In this document: in pieces, positions 47,269-52,877 of the stretch
Layout: every line of letters starts with the position of its first letter
Numbering within the stretch: the stretch's first letter is position 1
Assembly (NCBI RefSeq): GCF_030323145.1
Contig: NZ_CP100470.1
Coordinates: forward strand, 2,211,001-2,275,000
Reading direction: 5' to 3'
DNA length: 64,000 nucleotides
Origin: Mesorhizobium sp. C432A
GTDB taxonomy: Bacteria; Pseudomonadota; Alphaproteobacteria; Rhizobiales; Rhizobiaceae
Made by a program: the position numbers and the translations under genes
The notes under the pieces: generated by a model
Told to the model about the DNA's origin: nothing
Database searches by the model: none
Seen by the model: only the letters and a program-made list of their open reading frames with translations

Positions 47269-47341
47269 GCGCCATATCAGATTTCACACGGTCGTCGGCT
47301 CAACCAGCTCAGGGCCGGAGATAGGCCGCCACCCCACCGCG

Positions 47342-48227
47342 CTATTTCAGCGGCAGAAACAGCTCAAGCACCACCTCACGCACCGGTCCGTTCGACGAAA
47401 AGTGCCGTTGGCAATAGATCGGAAAGTCGCGCGCCTCCTCGCCGCTGGCCGGAAGCCATTCGCGGTACAGGTAAAGCGCTGCCGGCTCGAGATTGTTGGT
47501 GTTGCCGGGATAGCGCAGCACCGCGCATCGTCCGGCGGGGATCACGCCGGCCTTCATCTGCGCGTCCTCGATCGGCCCGCCTTCTACCGGCAGGTCGGTT
47601 CCGGCACAAATATCCATGCTGTAATCGGCCGGGTTCGCCGGCTCCCTTTCGGAACGGAAGATGTTGAAGGTCGGGCTTGTCTCGGGCGAGAGGCCGGCCG
47701 CCTTGCGCCAGGCGATGAAGCGCTGGATGGTGTCCTGGAGCGTCGCCCGGTCGCCGCGATGCTCCATGATCGCCACCGGCGTCGGCGGCACATCGCGGAT
47801 CATCACGTCGGCGGGTTCGAAGATTATCTGCATGGAGCGTGGTCCTTGCTTTGTCGAGCGGCCCGAAGGCCATGAGCCACGCACCCCAGTCGGGAGACTT
47901 CCGGAACGACGAAGGCGATTGTCCGAACCGTTGCCGAAAGGCGCGGGCGAAGGCATCCGGTGCGTCGTAACCGGCATCCATCGCTACGTCGGTGACGCTT
48001 TGGGCGCCGCTCTCGGCAAGCCTGTAAGAAGCGCGCTTCAGGCGGGCGAGCTGGACATAGCGATGCACGGACAGCCCGAAGGTTGATGTGAACTGCCGGT
48101 GGAAATGGAATTTCGAGAACGCCGCGACGCCGCTTAGCGCCTCCAGGCCCAGATCGTCGTCCAGATGCTGGTCTATGTGGTCCAGCACCCTCTGCATCCG
48201 GGCATGGTAGTTTTCAAGTGGCGTCAT
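47342..48227 (-). pseudogene. AraC-GyrI-like transcriptional regulator split by a frameshift
   Basis: The N-terminal part from ATG 48227 has two AraC HTH units (LGLEALSGVAAFSKFHFHRQ and VTDVAMDAGYDAPDAFARAF). The C-terminal part is a GyrI-like effector domain (FEPADVMIRDVPPTPVAIME onward, ending at 47342) but lies in a different frame. In this family both are one polypeptide. The break is near 47835-47860, after FGPLDKAR. Either a one-base indel (or sequencing error) has split the gene, or the GyrI domain is made separately from ATG 47833, which has AAGGA nine bases upstream. Confidence 0.75.
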
Positions 48228-48448
48228 CAAACGTCTCGTCCTGCGTGGCGACACCAGATAGGCGCTCCGGGGCATGTCGCGCTCGACCGATCTTGCGGTT
48301 TGACATGGCCAAAGAGGAGGTATGCGCAGCTAGGACGCGGGATAGTGGTTACCTAAGTCGATTTTAACGTGCCGGCTGCCTCTACTAGGCGCTGACAGAT
48401 CGAAGTACTGGCCGGTCGCCATCTGGTTATGCGAATTTATCAATTTGT

Positions 48449-49033
48449 ATGGCCGACGCCACAGGCGCACCATTGCGTGACCGGCTGAGAATCCGCATAG
48501 AATACAAAGTTATGAGGGTAGCAGGGGTAATTGGACCGAAAAAAGCAAACGTCGTATTCTCTCTATGGAGCGACGAGAAGCTGAAAACAAAGGACTTCCC
48601 TCTCAGCAAGAAGAGAGGGAAAGCCTATCCTCTTACGCGCCGCTATCGATGGCAAACCATAAGCTTTGCCACAAAGGGGCGTAACTACAGAGTGCTGGTT
48701 GCCTATCACACACTTGTTCCAGAGTTTATCGCCACCTTGGGCGAAGAAATCGGCGGGGATTTCCGAATTTTGGCGAGGTGGGAGTTTCACGCGACCCATG
48801 GTGGCTGGCATGTGCACACAGCTTGCGGGGACACTGATAACTTGTCAGTAGGCATCATAAAACCGTCAGGAACCAAGCGCATTCCTGATCCGAAGTCCTA
48901 CCATCGCCACATGAAAATGCTTAACGATGGACATGCTATGAGTGATGGGGTCGCTACGGCGATCGCGTGCAGCCTTGTCGGCATAGACCACCAACACGAT
49001 ATGTTTGTGATAGACGCGATGCCATGGGCTTGA
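48449..49033 (+). CDS. hypothetical protein of low-GC cassette
   Basis: 194 residues; base composition is visibly lower in GC (about 50%) than neighbours, with non-rhizobial codon use (many AAA, ATA, AGA), suggesting transfer. Basic, soluble, mostly beta-like; contains FRILARWEFHATHGGWHVHT with an H-x-H pair and FPLSKKRGKAYPLTRRYRW. No family recognised. Its last ten bases overlap the start of the DUF1828-type reading frame, so the two genes are coupled. No clear ribosome site at 48449; an internal ATG at 48512 is possible. Confidence 0.65.
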   Translation: MADATGAPLRDRLRIRIEYKVMRVAGVIGPKKANVVFSLWSDEKLKTKDFPLSKKRGKAYPLTRRYRWQTISFATKGRNYRVLVAYHTLVPEFIATLGEEIGGDFRILARWEFHATHGGWHVHTACGDTDNLSVGIIKPSGTKRIPDPKSYHRHMKMLNDGHAMSDGVATAIACSLVGIDHQHDMFVIDAMPWA

Positions 49034-49820
49034 AGGAACAAATATGTAGGGCGTTCTGCGAGAACGTCCGAATAACTGCCTTCAGCGGTGGTGTGGCTAT
49101 TTGCACGCCCTATAAAACTTCATTTCTGGAGACCTAATAGGCATATACGCGCTTGGTCCTAAGAGTGGCCTGTACCGTCTTGTCGACAACGCCCTCACGA
49201 TTGCGTTCCTGGAAGCGGAGGGTGCCACTATGGATGCTGCCAGTCGCAGAGAGGCATTGTCCCAAATCTTGGTGCAACACGGTGCGGCCTATGACGAGGA
49301 AATGGGAGAAATATTCATAGACGGCATAACAGAAGCCGATCTACCCAAGGCTGTTCTCGAATTTTCAGCTTTGCTCCTACGTCTGAACGATTTGATTCTT
49401 TTGACTGTCGAACGTGTAAAGAATGCATTCGAGGACGATGTGAGGGCCGCGATTAGAGACGAGATGGATAAGCGCCATGTCCGCTATGTCGAGGGCCAAC
49501 CAGTTTCTCCGGACTTGACAGATGTCACACCAGATATGGTTTTTTATCCGGAAGATCGCGATCCTGTGGCTTTGTTTATAGCGACGAATGATTCAAAGCT
49601 ATGGCAAGCAATGTTATTGCGAGTGATCGCGGATAGCGAGCGACACCTACCATTGTCGGTAGTTGCAGTCTTGGAAACCGAAACGTCCGTGAGTCAGAAA
49701 GTACGTCTACAGGCGGACAACCGCCTTGACGCGGCACCGCGATATAAGAGCGGCCCTATTGACACGATCCAACGAATAGCCCGTGTCGTTGTTGGCAACG
49801 AAGCTGCAACTGTCCACTGA
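49024..49820 (+). pseudogene. DUF1828/DUF1829-type protein with single -1 frameshift
   Basis: ATG 49024 reads KEQICRAFCENVRITAFSGG then AICTPYKTSF, and stops soon after at 49135. Moving back one base at about 49125 continues as GDLIGIYALGPKSGLYRLVD, NALTIAFLEAEGATM and on to 49820. The composite matches the DUF1828 pattern (TPF...D-x-I-x-IY...L-x-DxGxTI-x-x-LE...G-x-x-I-x-F...L-x-x-FxxAL). The C-terminal half fits a DUF1829-like domain. The shift falls in a short T-run, consistent with a one-base deletion, sequencing error or slippage. Low GC like its partner. Confidence 0.75.
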
Positions 49821-49897
49821 CGCTGAGCGCTTCGGCCAAACGCTGAGGGCGAATGACTTGTGATGTGCAGAAGGCGAGGCCTGCCCATGCTTCGCTA

Positions 49898-50800
49898 TCA
49901 CTCCGCCGCCTCCAAAAGCGACACCCCATTCAACCCCGCCACAATATCCGACAGCGCCGGCACGAACTTCTCGCCATGGCCTGTTGTGACGGCCGTGGCG
50001 AACCCATTGCGCACAGCGGCGCCGATCGGGTTGGCGATGCCGGCGGCGTGGGCGAAGGAGGCGAGATAGGTCATGTCCTTCAGCGCATTGGCGATGGCGA
50101 AGCGCTGGGCGTTTTCGTTGCGGTTCAAGACGAAATCGAAGAAGGCCTGGTAGAAGCCGCAATCCATGCGGCTGCCGGAGATGACGCTGTTGAAGACCTG
50201 CGGCGTCAGGCCGGCCTTGGCGCCGAGGCTCAGCGCTTCCGAATAGATCGCGGAATAGCCCATCGAAACGAAATTGTTGAGCAGCTTCATGGTGTGGCCG
50301 CTGCCGGTCGGGCCGGTGTGGACGACACGCGCGGCGAAGGCTTCGAGCACCGGCCGCGCTCGGGCGACGATCTCGGCCGCATCGCCGACCATGACGTCGA
50401 GCTTGCCCTCGGCGGCTTCCTTGGGCGTGCGCGCCAGCGGCGCGTCGATCAGCGTCATGCCCTGCTCCGCGAGGTCGGCGGCAAGCGCTGTCGTCGATGA
50501 GGGGTTGGAGGTCGAGCAGTCGATGATCAGCAACGGCTTAGCTGCCGCAGCAAGGCCATCCTGGCCTTTGACCAGCGCTTCGACCTCGTGCGAGCCGGTG
50601 ACGCACAGGATGACGATGTCGCTCGCGGTGGCGAGCGCGCGCGGGCTTGGCGCTTCGGTGGCGCCGGCGGCGATCAGCCGGTCGGCGGCCGTGCGGCTGC
50701 GGTGGACATGCACCGTCAGCGGCCAGCCCTTGCGCAGCAGATTGTCGGCCATGCCGGCGCCCATGCTGCCCAGGCCGATGAAACCGATGCGTTCTTTCAT
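49898..50800 (-). CDS. beta-hydroxyacid dehydrogenase (3-HIBADH / tartronate-semialdehyde reductase family)
   Basis: 300 residues from ATG 50800 (GGGAGGATT upstream; longer extension rejected). NAD-binding GFIGLGSMGAGMADNLLRKG at about 6, substrate motif DAPLARTPKEAAEGKLDVMV near 120 and the catalytic Lys in TGSGHTMKLLNNFVSMGYSA near 170. Reduces or oxidises a 3-hydroxyacid such as tartronate semialdehyde or 3-hydroxyisobutyrate. Divergent from a FadR-type regulator 123 bases away. Confidence 0.92.
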   Translation of the reverse strand: MKERIGFIGLGSMGAGMADNLLRKGWPLTVHVHRSRTAADRLIAAGATEAPSPRALATASDIVILCVTGSHEVEALVKGQDGLAAAAKPLLIIDCSTSNPSSTTALAADLAEQGMTLIDAPLARTPKEAAEGKLDVMVGDAAEIVARARPVLEAFAARVVHTGPTGSGHTMKLLNNFVSMGYSAIYSEALSLGAKAGLTPQVFNSVISGSRMDCGFYQAFFDFVLNRNENAQRFAIANALKDMTYLASFAHAAGIANPIGAAVRNGFATAVTTGHGEKFVPALSDIVAGLNGVSLLEAAE

Positions 50801-50922
50801 GCAATCCTCCCATGGCCCGTGCCGACGGGCCGAATTTTCGTCACCTTGCGGCGAGCACCTGTCGATGCAATTCTTTGAATAAGATTCGGCCTTCGAACAA
50901 GAATCGAACCGGAGTGCCACCG

Positions 50923-51663
50923 ATGGCGGAGCCCATGACTTTCGACGCCATACCGCAGGCGCCCAACCTGCGGACGGGTCTGGTCAACACGCTGATTGCG
51001 CAGATCGAATCCGGTGACCTTGCGCCGGGGCAGCGGCTGCCGACCGAGCAGGAGATTGTTGCTGCCACGGGCGTCAGCCGCACCGTGGTGCGCGAGGCGC
51101 TGGCGGCGCTGCGTGCGCGCGGGCTGATTACCACGCGCCAGGGGCTCGGCGCCTTCGTCGCCAAGGATCCGCCGCCGAAGACGTTTTCCGTGCTGCCCGA
51201 CGATCTCGAATCGATCGACGAGGTGCTGCGCGTGCTCGAACTGCGCATGGGCATCGAGGTCGAAGCGACAGGCCTCGCCGCCGAACGGCGCAGCGAGGCA
51301 GCGCTCCAGCAGATGAGCGCGCGGCTCGACGCGCTGGAGGCGGCGGTGCGCGCCGGCGGCTCCGGCTCGGAAGAGGATTTCGGCTTCCACCGCGCCATTC
51401 TGGCGGCGACGCAGAACCCGAATTTCACCCGGCTGTTCGATACGTTCGGCAGCGCCATGGTCCCGCGCCATTGGACGCGGCTCGACCGCATGACGGAGGC
51501 CGAGCGGGAAAAATATCTCGACCGCATGCAGCGCGAGCATCGCGCCATTCTCGGGGCAATCGAAGCCAGGGACGTCAACGCCGCGCGGCGCGCCATGCGC
51601 AGCCATCTGACCAAAAGCTATGCCCGCTTCGAGGACCTGCGCGACAAGGCTGTTCACGATTAG
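50923..51663 (+). CDS. FadR-subfamily GntR transcriptional regulator
   Basis: 246 residues from ATG 50923 (GGAG nine bases upstream). Winged helix: LVNTLIAQIESGDLAPGQRL and EIVAATGVSRTVVREALAAL at about 18-70. FCD domain about 90-230 (VLELRMGIEVEATGLAAERR, DFGFHRAILAATQNPNFTRL, EHRAILGAIEARDVNAARRA). Divergent from the beta-hydroxyacid dehydrogenase and upstream of an aldo/keto reductase with a perfect FadR-type site, so it probably regulates one or both. Confidence 0.92.
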   Translation: MAEPMTFDAIPQAPNLRTGLVNTLIAQIESGDLAPGQRLPTEQEIVAATGVSRTVVREALAALRARGLITTRQGLGAFVAKDPPPKTFSVLPDDLESIDEVLRVLELRMGIEVEATGLAAERRSEAALQQMSARLDALEAAVRAGGSGSEEDFGFHRAILAATQNPNFTRLFDTFGSAMVPRHWTRLDRMTEAEREKYLDRMQREHRAILGAIEARDVNAARRAMRSHLTKSYARFEDLRDKAVHD

Positions 51664-51769
51664 GGAGCCAACCACGGTTGACTGACTGCTCATCCGGCGA
51701 CCCCGTCGGAGATCGAGTTCGCGAATCAGCGACATGTTCCTCCCGGCTCGAAATCGTTGCAATCTTACC

Positions 51770-51786
51770 GGGTTGTCATACAACCC
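51770..51786. promoter_or_regulatory. FadR-subfamily GntR operator upstream of aldo/keto reductase
   Basis: GGGTTGT-CAT-ACAACCC, a perfect 7-bp dyad containing the TNGTNNNACNA core recognised by FadR-subfamily GntR proteins. It lies between the FadR-type gene ending at 51663 and the reductase starting at 51891. Seen directly; the link to the regulator at 50923 is inferred from adjacency. Confidence 0.75.
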
Positions 51787-51890
51787 TGTGATCTGGTAAA
51801 TCCAGGGAAGAGGGATGTCAATCGCGTTGCCATGCGGTATGAGGCTCCCGAAATCAGAACCGTCATCAAAGCCGCAAGTCAGGAAGCAAA

Positions 51891-52877
51891 ATGCAGTCAC
51901 GGAAATTTGGCCGTACCGGCAGATCAGTCAGCGAGATCGGCTTCGGCGCCTGGGCGATCGGCGCCGCCTGGGGCGAGGTAAATGACGACGATGCGGTCGC
52001 CGCCCTGCATGCCGCGCTCGATGCCGGCGTCAGCTTCCTCGACACCGCCGACGTCTATGGCGACGGCCGTTCGGAAAAGCTGATCGCACGGGTGATGAAG
52101 GAACGCGGCGGCGGGCGCCCGTTCATCGCCACCAAGGCCGGACGGCGGCTGCCGAAGCAGACGGTCGAGGGCTACAGCGTCGAGAACCTCACCGGCTGGA
52201 TCGACCGCAGCCTGAAATACCTCGAGACCGACACGCTGGACCTGGTGCAACTGCATTGCCCGCCGACCGATCTCTACTATCATCCGGAGGTGTTCGAGCG
52301 TCTCGACAAGCTCACCGAGCAGGGCAAGATCCGCAATTACGGCGTCAGCGTCGAGCGCGTCGAAGAGGCGCTGAAGGCGATGCAATATCCCGGTGTCGTC
52401 AGCGTGCAGATCATCTTCAACGCCTTCCGCCAGCGCCCGGCCGAGCTGTTCTTCGCTGAGGCGAAAAAGAACGATGTCGCCATCATCGCCCGGGTGCCGC
52501 TGGCCAGCGGCCTGCTGTCAGGCAAGTTCAAGGCGGACACCAAGTTCGAGAGCACCGATCATCGCCTGTTCAACAGGAATGGCGAAGTCTTCGATGTCGG
52601 CGAGACGTTTTCGGGCGTGCCCTATGAGGTCGGCCTGGCGGCCGTCGAGAAGGTGCGGCCGCTGGTGTCAGGCGACACCACGATGGCGAAATTCGCTCTG
52701 CGCTGGATCCTGATGTTCGACGCTGTGACGGTCGTCATTCCCGGCGCCCGCAATCCGGCGCAGGCGGTTTCCAATGCGGAAGCGGCGGAGCTTGCGCCGT
52801 TGTCCTCCGAGTTGATGGCCAAGGTGAAGGCGGTCTACGACGAGAACATCAAGCCCTACGTGCATCAGCGCTGGTGA
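51891..52877 (+). CDS. aldo/keto reductase
   Basis: 328 residues. The N-terminal RKFGRTGRSVSEIGFGAWAI is standard. The catalytic tetrad is visible: Asp and Tyr in FLDTADVYGDGRSE, Lys in FIATKAGRR, His in TLDLVQLHCPP. C-terminal NADPH-site helix region ARNPAQAVSNAEAAELAPLS. Reduces sugar aldehydes or ketones with NADPH; the exact substrate is unknown. Probably under the FadR-type operator at 51770. Confidence 0.92.
   Translation: MQSRKFGRTGRSVSEIGFGAWAIGAAWGEVNDDDAVAALHAALDAGVSFLDTADVYGDGRSEKLIARVMKERGGGRPFIATKAGRRLPKQTVEGYSVENLTGWIDRSLKYLETDTLDLVQLHCPPTDLYYHPEVFERLDKLTEQGKIRNYGVSVERVEEALKAMQYPGVVSVQIIFNAFRQRPAELFFAEAKKNDVAIIARVPLASGLLSGKFKADTKFESTDHRLFNRNGEVFDVGETFSGVPYEVGLAAVEKVRPLVSGDTTMAKFALRWILMFDAVTVVIPGARNPAQAVSNAEAAELAPLSSELMAKVKAVYDENIKPYVHQRW

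Follow-up and report, generated by a model that had tools for sequence, protein, structure and literature searches.

The closest described counterpart of the gene pair considered here is PDC-M24, a candidate of the PADLOC library that combines a DUF6978 protein with a DUF1828/DUF1829 protein, and for which no literature was found under that name. Other arrangements are comparable in layout: the two genes of lambda RexAB are expressed with the prophage repressor, PrrC is a second-line module located within a type I restriction operon, between the hsd genes, and IS1595-family transposons may carry passenger genes. A two-gene unit made of a HipA-like kinase and a DUF3037-DUF1829 protein, HipAD or DS-6, is reported as a tested phage defence (PMC13092281). 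The pair in question lies in a stretch of 64,000 nucleotides of Mesorhizobium sp. C432A (contig NZ_CP100470.1, positions 2,211,001 to 2,275,000 of the forward strand; hereafter the window). There, the initial annotation had proposed two functionally paired, laterally transferred genes with a phage or defence flavour, and this proposal is supported by the adjacency of their relatives on phages, a transposon and chromosomes. The unit is a mobile gene pair, whose elements in the window are the following:

48512..49033, plus strand: gene 1, 173 amino acids (aa), intact, with 91 relatives, purifying selection and an AlphaFold model
48782..48817, plus strand: the E91-x-H93-x6-H100-x-H102 cluster of gene 1, with E91, H93, G98, W99, H100 and H102 identical in 85/85 aligned proteins
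49024..49033, plus strand: overlap of ten bases, ATGGGCTTGA, between the gene 1 stop and the gene 2 start, with the same layout in the relatives G012 and G007
49024..49137, plus strand: 5' piece of gene 2, 37 codons and then TAA, in the frame of the overlapping ATG
49116..49820, plus strand: remainder of gene 2 (DUF1828) in another frame, with its first ATG at 49230 and a match to PF08861

Gene 1 and its DUF1828 partner

Of 101 related genomes, 4 carry gene 1 and the same 4 carry DUF1828, the two genes being adjacent and in the same order in all four. A search at the level of the order, covering 297 genomes, detected gene 1 in 7 and DUF1828 in 6 of them, with five genomes having both; the DUF1828-like partner of G299 was missed by the Pfam search and reached 88.8 bits with a model of our own, and 6 of the 7 gene 1 matches adjoin a DUF1828 protein. 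In the loci of named genomes the pair is adjacent in 6/6, two of which coincide with those of G012 and G007. The 18 DUF1828 and 17 gene 1 loci detected in IMG/VR are spread over 23 distinct contigs, and the two genes are adjacent in 23/23, several of these contigs being near copies of each other and the adjacency sets overlapping; in two of the loci, L125 and L130, gene 2 is split over frames. A first scan of viral contigs with alignment A3 gave nothing, and the loci were then found with a wider alignment, while a plasmid search with gene 2 of L003 gave no match. Moreover, the protein distances of the two genes are correlated over 11 loci (r = 0.949, with 0 of 9999 permutations as high), a value that may partly reflect common descent of the host loci. 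The pairing is therefore far from chance and, because of the adjacency and the congruent divergence, the two genes behave as the tightly linked, co-inherited genes expected of toxin-antitoxin systems. Counted across genomes, as the initial annotation had suggested, gene 1 relatives adjoin DUF1828 everywhere examined except in G078. The adjacency holds from the side of gene 1, but DUF1828 proteins outside the gene 1 group have other small partners, as in G338 of the order-level search, where the partner is DUF6978.

The first gene had been placed from 48449. We assign its start to the ATG at 48512, because the frame upstream is not conserved (an indel separates the window from two relatives) and most relatives have 169-174 aa; this is the length of 17 of the 23 proteins collected by the first search, the rest having 112-230 aa. 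With an alignment as query, at E up to 0.001, the relatives rose to 91. The ratio of nonsynonymous to synonymous substitution rates (dN/dS) of the window against two relatives is 0.10 and 0.13, and 0.10-0.17 among three loci, so that gene 1 is under purifying selection and its frame is conserved as protein. In alignment A8, whose 85 members are the window, four loci and 80 of 93 database proteins (the 13 omitted are 11 shorter than 160 aa and two of 164 aa), residues W19, W47, E91, H93, G98, W99, H100 and H102 are invariant, and the H-x-H pair noticed at the outset corresponds to H100 and H102. The AlphaFold model (mean predicted local distance difference test score, pLDDT, of 92.5) is a run of strands, in which E91/H93 and H100/H102 are on neighbouring predicted strands, 83-93 and 96-104.

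The absence of a recognised family was borne out, since the window protein had no match in Pfam, PADLOC, PHROG and NCBIfam at E up to 1. The 85 members of A8 gave 0 matches with PADLOC at E up to 10 and, with Pfam, 12 families with one weak match each, none of them DUF6978; in these scans the HMMER filters discard most very weak matches. Foldseek and VIA-align, run with the gene 1 model, found no solved fold standing out, and a sequence search of PDB with gene 1 and gene 2 gave nothing useful. A weak structural match to gene 1 was the phage protein A0A8S5NGZ0 of BFVD (154 aa, template modelling score, TM, 0.40, E 0.32). By eye, the strand order and the H-x-H hairpin of gene 1 and DUF6978 are alike. 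The two were compared by sequence profiles, and gene 1 as a divergent DUF6978 is unsupported (hhalign probability 0.2%).

The vehicles of the pair are of different kinds. In the Rhizobium phage RHph_N28_2 it lies directly 3' of an annotated S24-type repressor and in the same direction, and a repressor-like gene is directly 5' of the pair in L010, L011, L127, L128 and L140; the two are separated by one small gene in L008. A repressor model was built from five proteins picked by eye or by annotation (L008, L010, L011, L128 and L140), whose loci match by construction; it also matches L127 strongly (94.7 bits) and L129 and L130 weakly, and found none in the other loci searched. This phage position suggests expression in the lysogen. 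Searches of PDB by sequence gave nothing useful for one repressor-like open reading frame (ORF) or for the transposase, and one weak match for a second repressor-like ORF. A different carrier was found in G006:

L102 4881-7688 (G006): complete IS1595-type transposon of 2808 bp with the pair as cargo

This element has inverted repeats of 27 nt (93%), a target duplication of 8 bp and a PF12762 transposase. Transposases of PF12762 also stand beside the pair in G224 and G012, and what appears by eye to be a transposase remnant lies upstream of it in L135. The pair of L009 is placed between seeming carotenoid genes, likewise labelled by eye.

The second gene and its surroundings in the window

Gene 2 had been read as one frame of a DUF1828/DUF1829-type protein. 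In the window sequence it is not one open frame: the frame from the ATG at 49024 stops at 49135-49137, and the DUF1828 frame is open elsewhere. The ten-base overlap is real, and its layout is kept in two relatives, but the frame that overlaps is the short one. As for the family, the DUF1828 label stood (PF08861, 31 bits with a cut-off of 22), while DUF1829 was not detected, either in the window piece or in the intact relatives L003 and L004. Gene 2 is single-frame and intact in G012 and G007, and also in the protein P0098 (265 aa), whose residues 32-265 equal the second frame of the window and whose 90%-identity cluster has 18 members, the longest contig being of 394 kb. A match to PDC-M24B of PADLOC was obtained with 44.7 bits for 49143-49817, and with 58.7 and 58.9 bits for L003 and L004, respectively. 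A weak match to type IV Cas6 (E 0.033 for the window piece and 0.009 for L003) was taken as chance. Programmed frameshifting was considered for gene 2 and set aside, no convincing slippery site being recognised by eye.

Structure prediction gives the C-terminal domain of gene 2 a PD-(D/E)XK nuclease fold. In alignment A9, which omits 9 of 68 DUF1828 proteins, D171 is present in 61/61 members, but positions 182-187 hold no acidic-x-Lys pair; E-x-K is missing from the predicted third core strand in 61/61, position 184 being L/I/V/F. The predicted N-terminal domain may have a fold like that of type III secretion chaperones.

The pair lies in an island of the window, for which the following features were delimited:

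48309..49897, no strand: low-GC cassette, GC content 51.7%, whose place is taken in G001 by 110 bp of other sequence
48466..48511, plus strand: conserved strip upstream of gene 1, from the DNA alignment with G012 and G007

The base composition was correctly noted as unlike that of the neighbours, with a GC content of 51.5% in gene 1 and 50.7% in gene 2 against 64.2% in the window. The cassette is the lowest of 1253 sliding windows of 1372 bp, and the lowest outside the region has 57.4%. Locus L038 of G001 matches the window at 47316-48308 and 49898-52000, with 110 bp between them in place of 1589 bp, so that the cassette is absent there (left flank identity, 89%). Neither long repeats flanking the cassette nor ends like those of the transposon in G006 were found in the window. 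Within the genus, the pair is present by DNA in 3 of 146 genomes, after a 26-bp match in G710 was dropped, and by protein in a fourth, G006, as a divergent copy. The DNA homology with the relatives begins at 48468-48470 and extends on the right to 49818 for G007 and to 49830 for G012, the latter limit being bounded by the end of the query. The strip upstream of gene 1 may be a promoter.

The frame break of gene 2 may be a true mutation or a sequencing error. Upstream of the cassette, an AraC-type regulator with a GyrI-like domain (labelled by eye, window 47342-48275) is a single frame in G001 and is split in the window by a one-base difference near 47834, where G018 has the same state as G001. 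A frame comparison with G001 and G018 over about 17 kb flagged 10 of 24 ORFs and left 14 without a flag; two of those flagged cover the AraC-type regulator at 47345-48266, one of them antisense, and the other eight have one or two stops each, several being antisense or overlong. The pair could be a decaying remnant in this strain, transferred, with gene 2 a pseudogene and without function, an explanation that we regard as possible and hold tentatively. It fits the stop after 37 codons and the second frame-changing difference in the regulator; two such differences close together, however, may be sequencing errors, and the tail of gene 2 has a dN/dS of about 0.04 among three loci and is matched residue for residue by P0098, for which reason a decay of gene 2 would be very recent.

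Possible roles of the pair and the wider DUF1828 family

In a search of the phylum, DUF1828 was found in 11 of 398 genomes, in all 11 with a small same-strand gene, or its remnant, upstream. Three of these partners are of the gene 1 type; L031 and L032 each have a weak relative of DUF6978, just under the Pfam cut-off, the partner in L028 is DUF6978-like by eye, and those of L030, L033 and L034 have no clear family. In L023, from the order-level search, the partner is DUF6978 (144 bits, and 180 bits with PDC-M24A). At L027 the situation of the window is reversed, a small partner reduced to 71 codons (1161-1376) standing beside an intact DUF1828 gene. When neighbours were scanned with PADLOC, L027 was flanked by BrxC and PglX, and L028 by HsdS and HsdR; L030 and L031 stand next to type IIG enzymes, L029 next to a reverse transcriptase, L032 next to PDC-M59A, and L023 next to a SIR2-type protein with best matches to ThsA. 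Matches were thus obtained for 9 of the 10 proteins scanned and at all 7 loci, the neighbours having been chosen by eye without a random-gene control and L033 and L034 left out. The DUF1828 half of the pair is a member of a group that occurs among restriction and BREX genes or beside them.

In the Firmicutes phage records viewed, the DUF1828 gene is preceded on its own strand by an ORF of 144-157 aa and lies upstream of an integrase in 9/9, and an annotated repressor or helix-turn-helix (HTH) gene lies upstream on the same strand in 7/9. Two of these partner ORFs are unannotated, L093 2474-2947 and L095 2514-2978, from the Streptococcus phage Javan249 and the satellite phage Javan357. The H-x-H motif is present in 6/9 of the partner proteins; the streptococcal partners of L092, L093 and L096 are without it and have N-R-I/V-N at that place. 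The integrase and repressor positions, which concern pairs of the DUF6978 side, and the repressor adjoining the pair in RHph_N28_2, would suit a pair serving prophage lysogeny, by superinfection exclusion or regulation, as phage cargo and as neither a toxin-antitoxin nor a general defence. We find this doubtful, since the pair is also cargo of an IS1595 transposon, and loci with DUF6978 or other partners occur on a plasmid as well as in or beside the restriction and BREX genes, settings where there is no lysogeny to keep.

The pair is best read as an immune module, either toxin-antitoxin-like or of the guard type. In particular, we estimate at about 0.5 the probability that it is a mobile two-gene module of temperate phages, a transposon and chromosomes, likely toxin-antitoxin-like and anti-phage, protecting the lysogen, in which gene 1 is the probable effector and the DUF1828 protein the probable holder and sensor. 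A single overlapping transcript would encode both proteins, and gene 1 would be bound and silenced by the predicted N-domain of its DUF1828 partner, which is possibly chaperone-like. The C-domain, whose predicted nuclease fold is without the catalytic E-x-K, would serve to detect a nucleic acid or a phage product, and infection would release gene 1. Gene 1 would then act as an enzyme by means of its invariant Glu/three-His cluster, on a substrate that is likeliest nucleic acid or a nucleotide, and this activity would stop the cell or the phage. The copy in the window is probably inactive or mis-sequenced, because the gene of the sensor is frame-broken.

Two observations weigh against this assignment. 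The gene 1 match of G078, which is marginal (E 1.6e-4), has no partner in its locus of 3.2 kb; it is probably a chance match and was counted as one miss. In addition, the fact that gene 2 is the broken gene in the window suggests that gene 2 is the harmful partner, whereas sequence conservation suggests that it is gene 1. A reversal of the roles, with the DUF1828 protein as effector, gene 1 as its antidote or regulator and a harmless loss of gene 2, would agree with the break in the window, but it is unlikely given the lack of E-x-K throughout the DUF1828 members and the broken small partner beside a whole DUF1828 gene in L027.

If the immune reading is true, as lysogen protection or abortive infection, a single pair would connect the immunity operons of prophages with restriction-associated defence and with the cargo of transposons. 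For the gene 1 family, a partner and a vehicle are now indicated, together with a setting in phage immunity, and a role as holder and sensor is suggested for DUF1828 at the level of the fold. More broadly, and with less confidence than in the reading of the pair itself, DUF1828/DUF1829 proteins might form the shared core of a modular immune system, in which a chaperone-like domain and a catalytically dead nuclease fold are combined with interchangeable effectors (DUF6978, a HipA-like kinase or the E-x-H/GWH-x-H family) and are carried by phages as lysogenic cargo, by IS1595 elements as passengers and by restriction or BREX operons as second-line inserts.

Comparison with known systems

The DUF1828 half and the two-gene layout are already catalogued as a candidate. 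In PDC-M24, likewise, a partner of 150-170 aa comes first and the DUF1828 protein second, the genes overlap or are closely spaced on the same strand, and the contexts are mobile and defence-related; the second protein of our pair matches PDC-M24B. By contrast, gene 1 matches no PDC-M24A model or DUF6978 (0/85 members, and the profile comparison given above), and DUF1829 was not detected in gene 2 or its intact relatives. The module suspected at the outset to be undescribed therefore appears new in its gene 1 family, which is unmatched in the libraries searched, but not in its DUF1828 half; a candidate existing only in a database is extended to a partner missed by its models. The gene 1 family, its place in a phage repressor operon and the IS1595 carrier were not found in the libraries or literature listings searched.

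With PrrC the likeness lies in L028, where a small gene and a DUF1828 gene stand between HsdS and HsdR; the proteins are other ones, and the gene 1-type family was not seen in such an operon among the loci viewed. To lambda RexAB the pair is similar as a two-gene unit standing with a repressor, the likeness claimed being one of layout. No literature on such IS1595 cargo was recognised among the matches listed; the G006 element has the transposase, the inverted repeats, the 8-bp duplication and the cargo of an IS1595 transposon with passengers. HipAD resembles our pair in having two genes, of which the DUF1829-domain protein is the non-kinase partner, and differs in that its other partner is a kinase and that DUF1828 is not mentioned in the accessible part of the source (PMC13092281), while gene 1, with 173 aa, has no kinase match and no Pfam match at E up to 1. 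Because HipAD is reported to pair its DUF3037-DUF1829 protein with a HipA-like kinase (PMC13092281), an exchange of partners around proteins of this kind is plausible.
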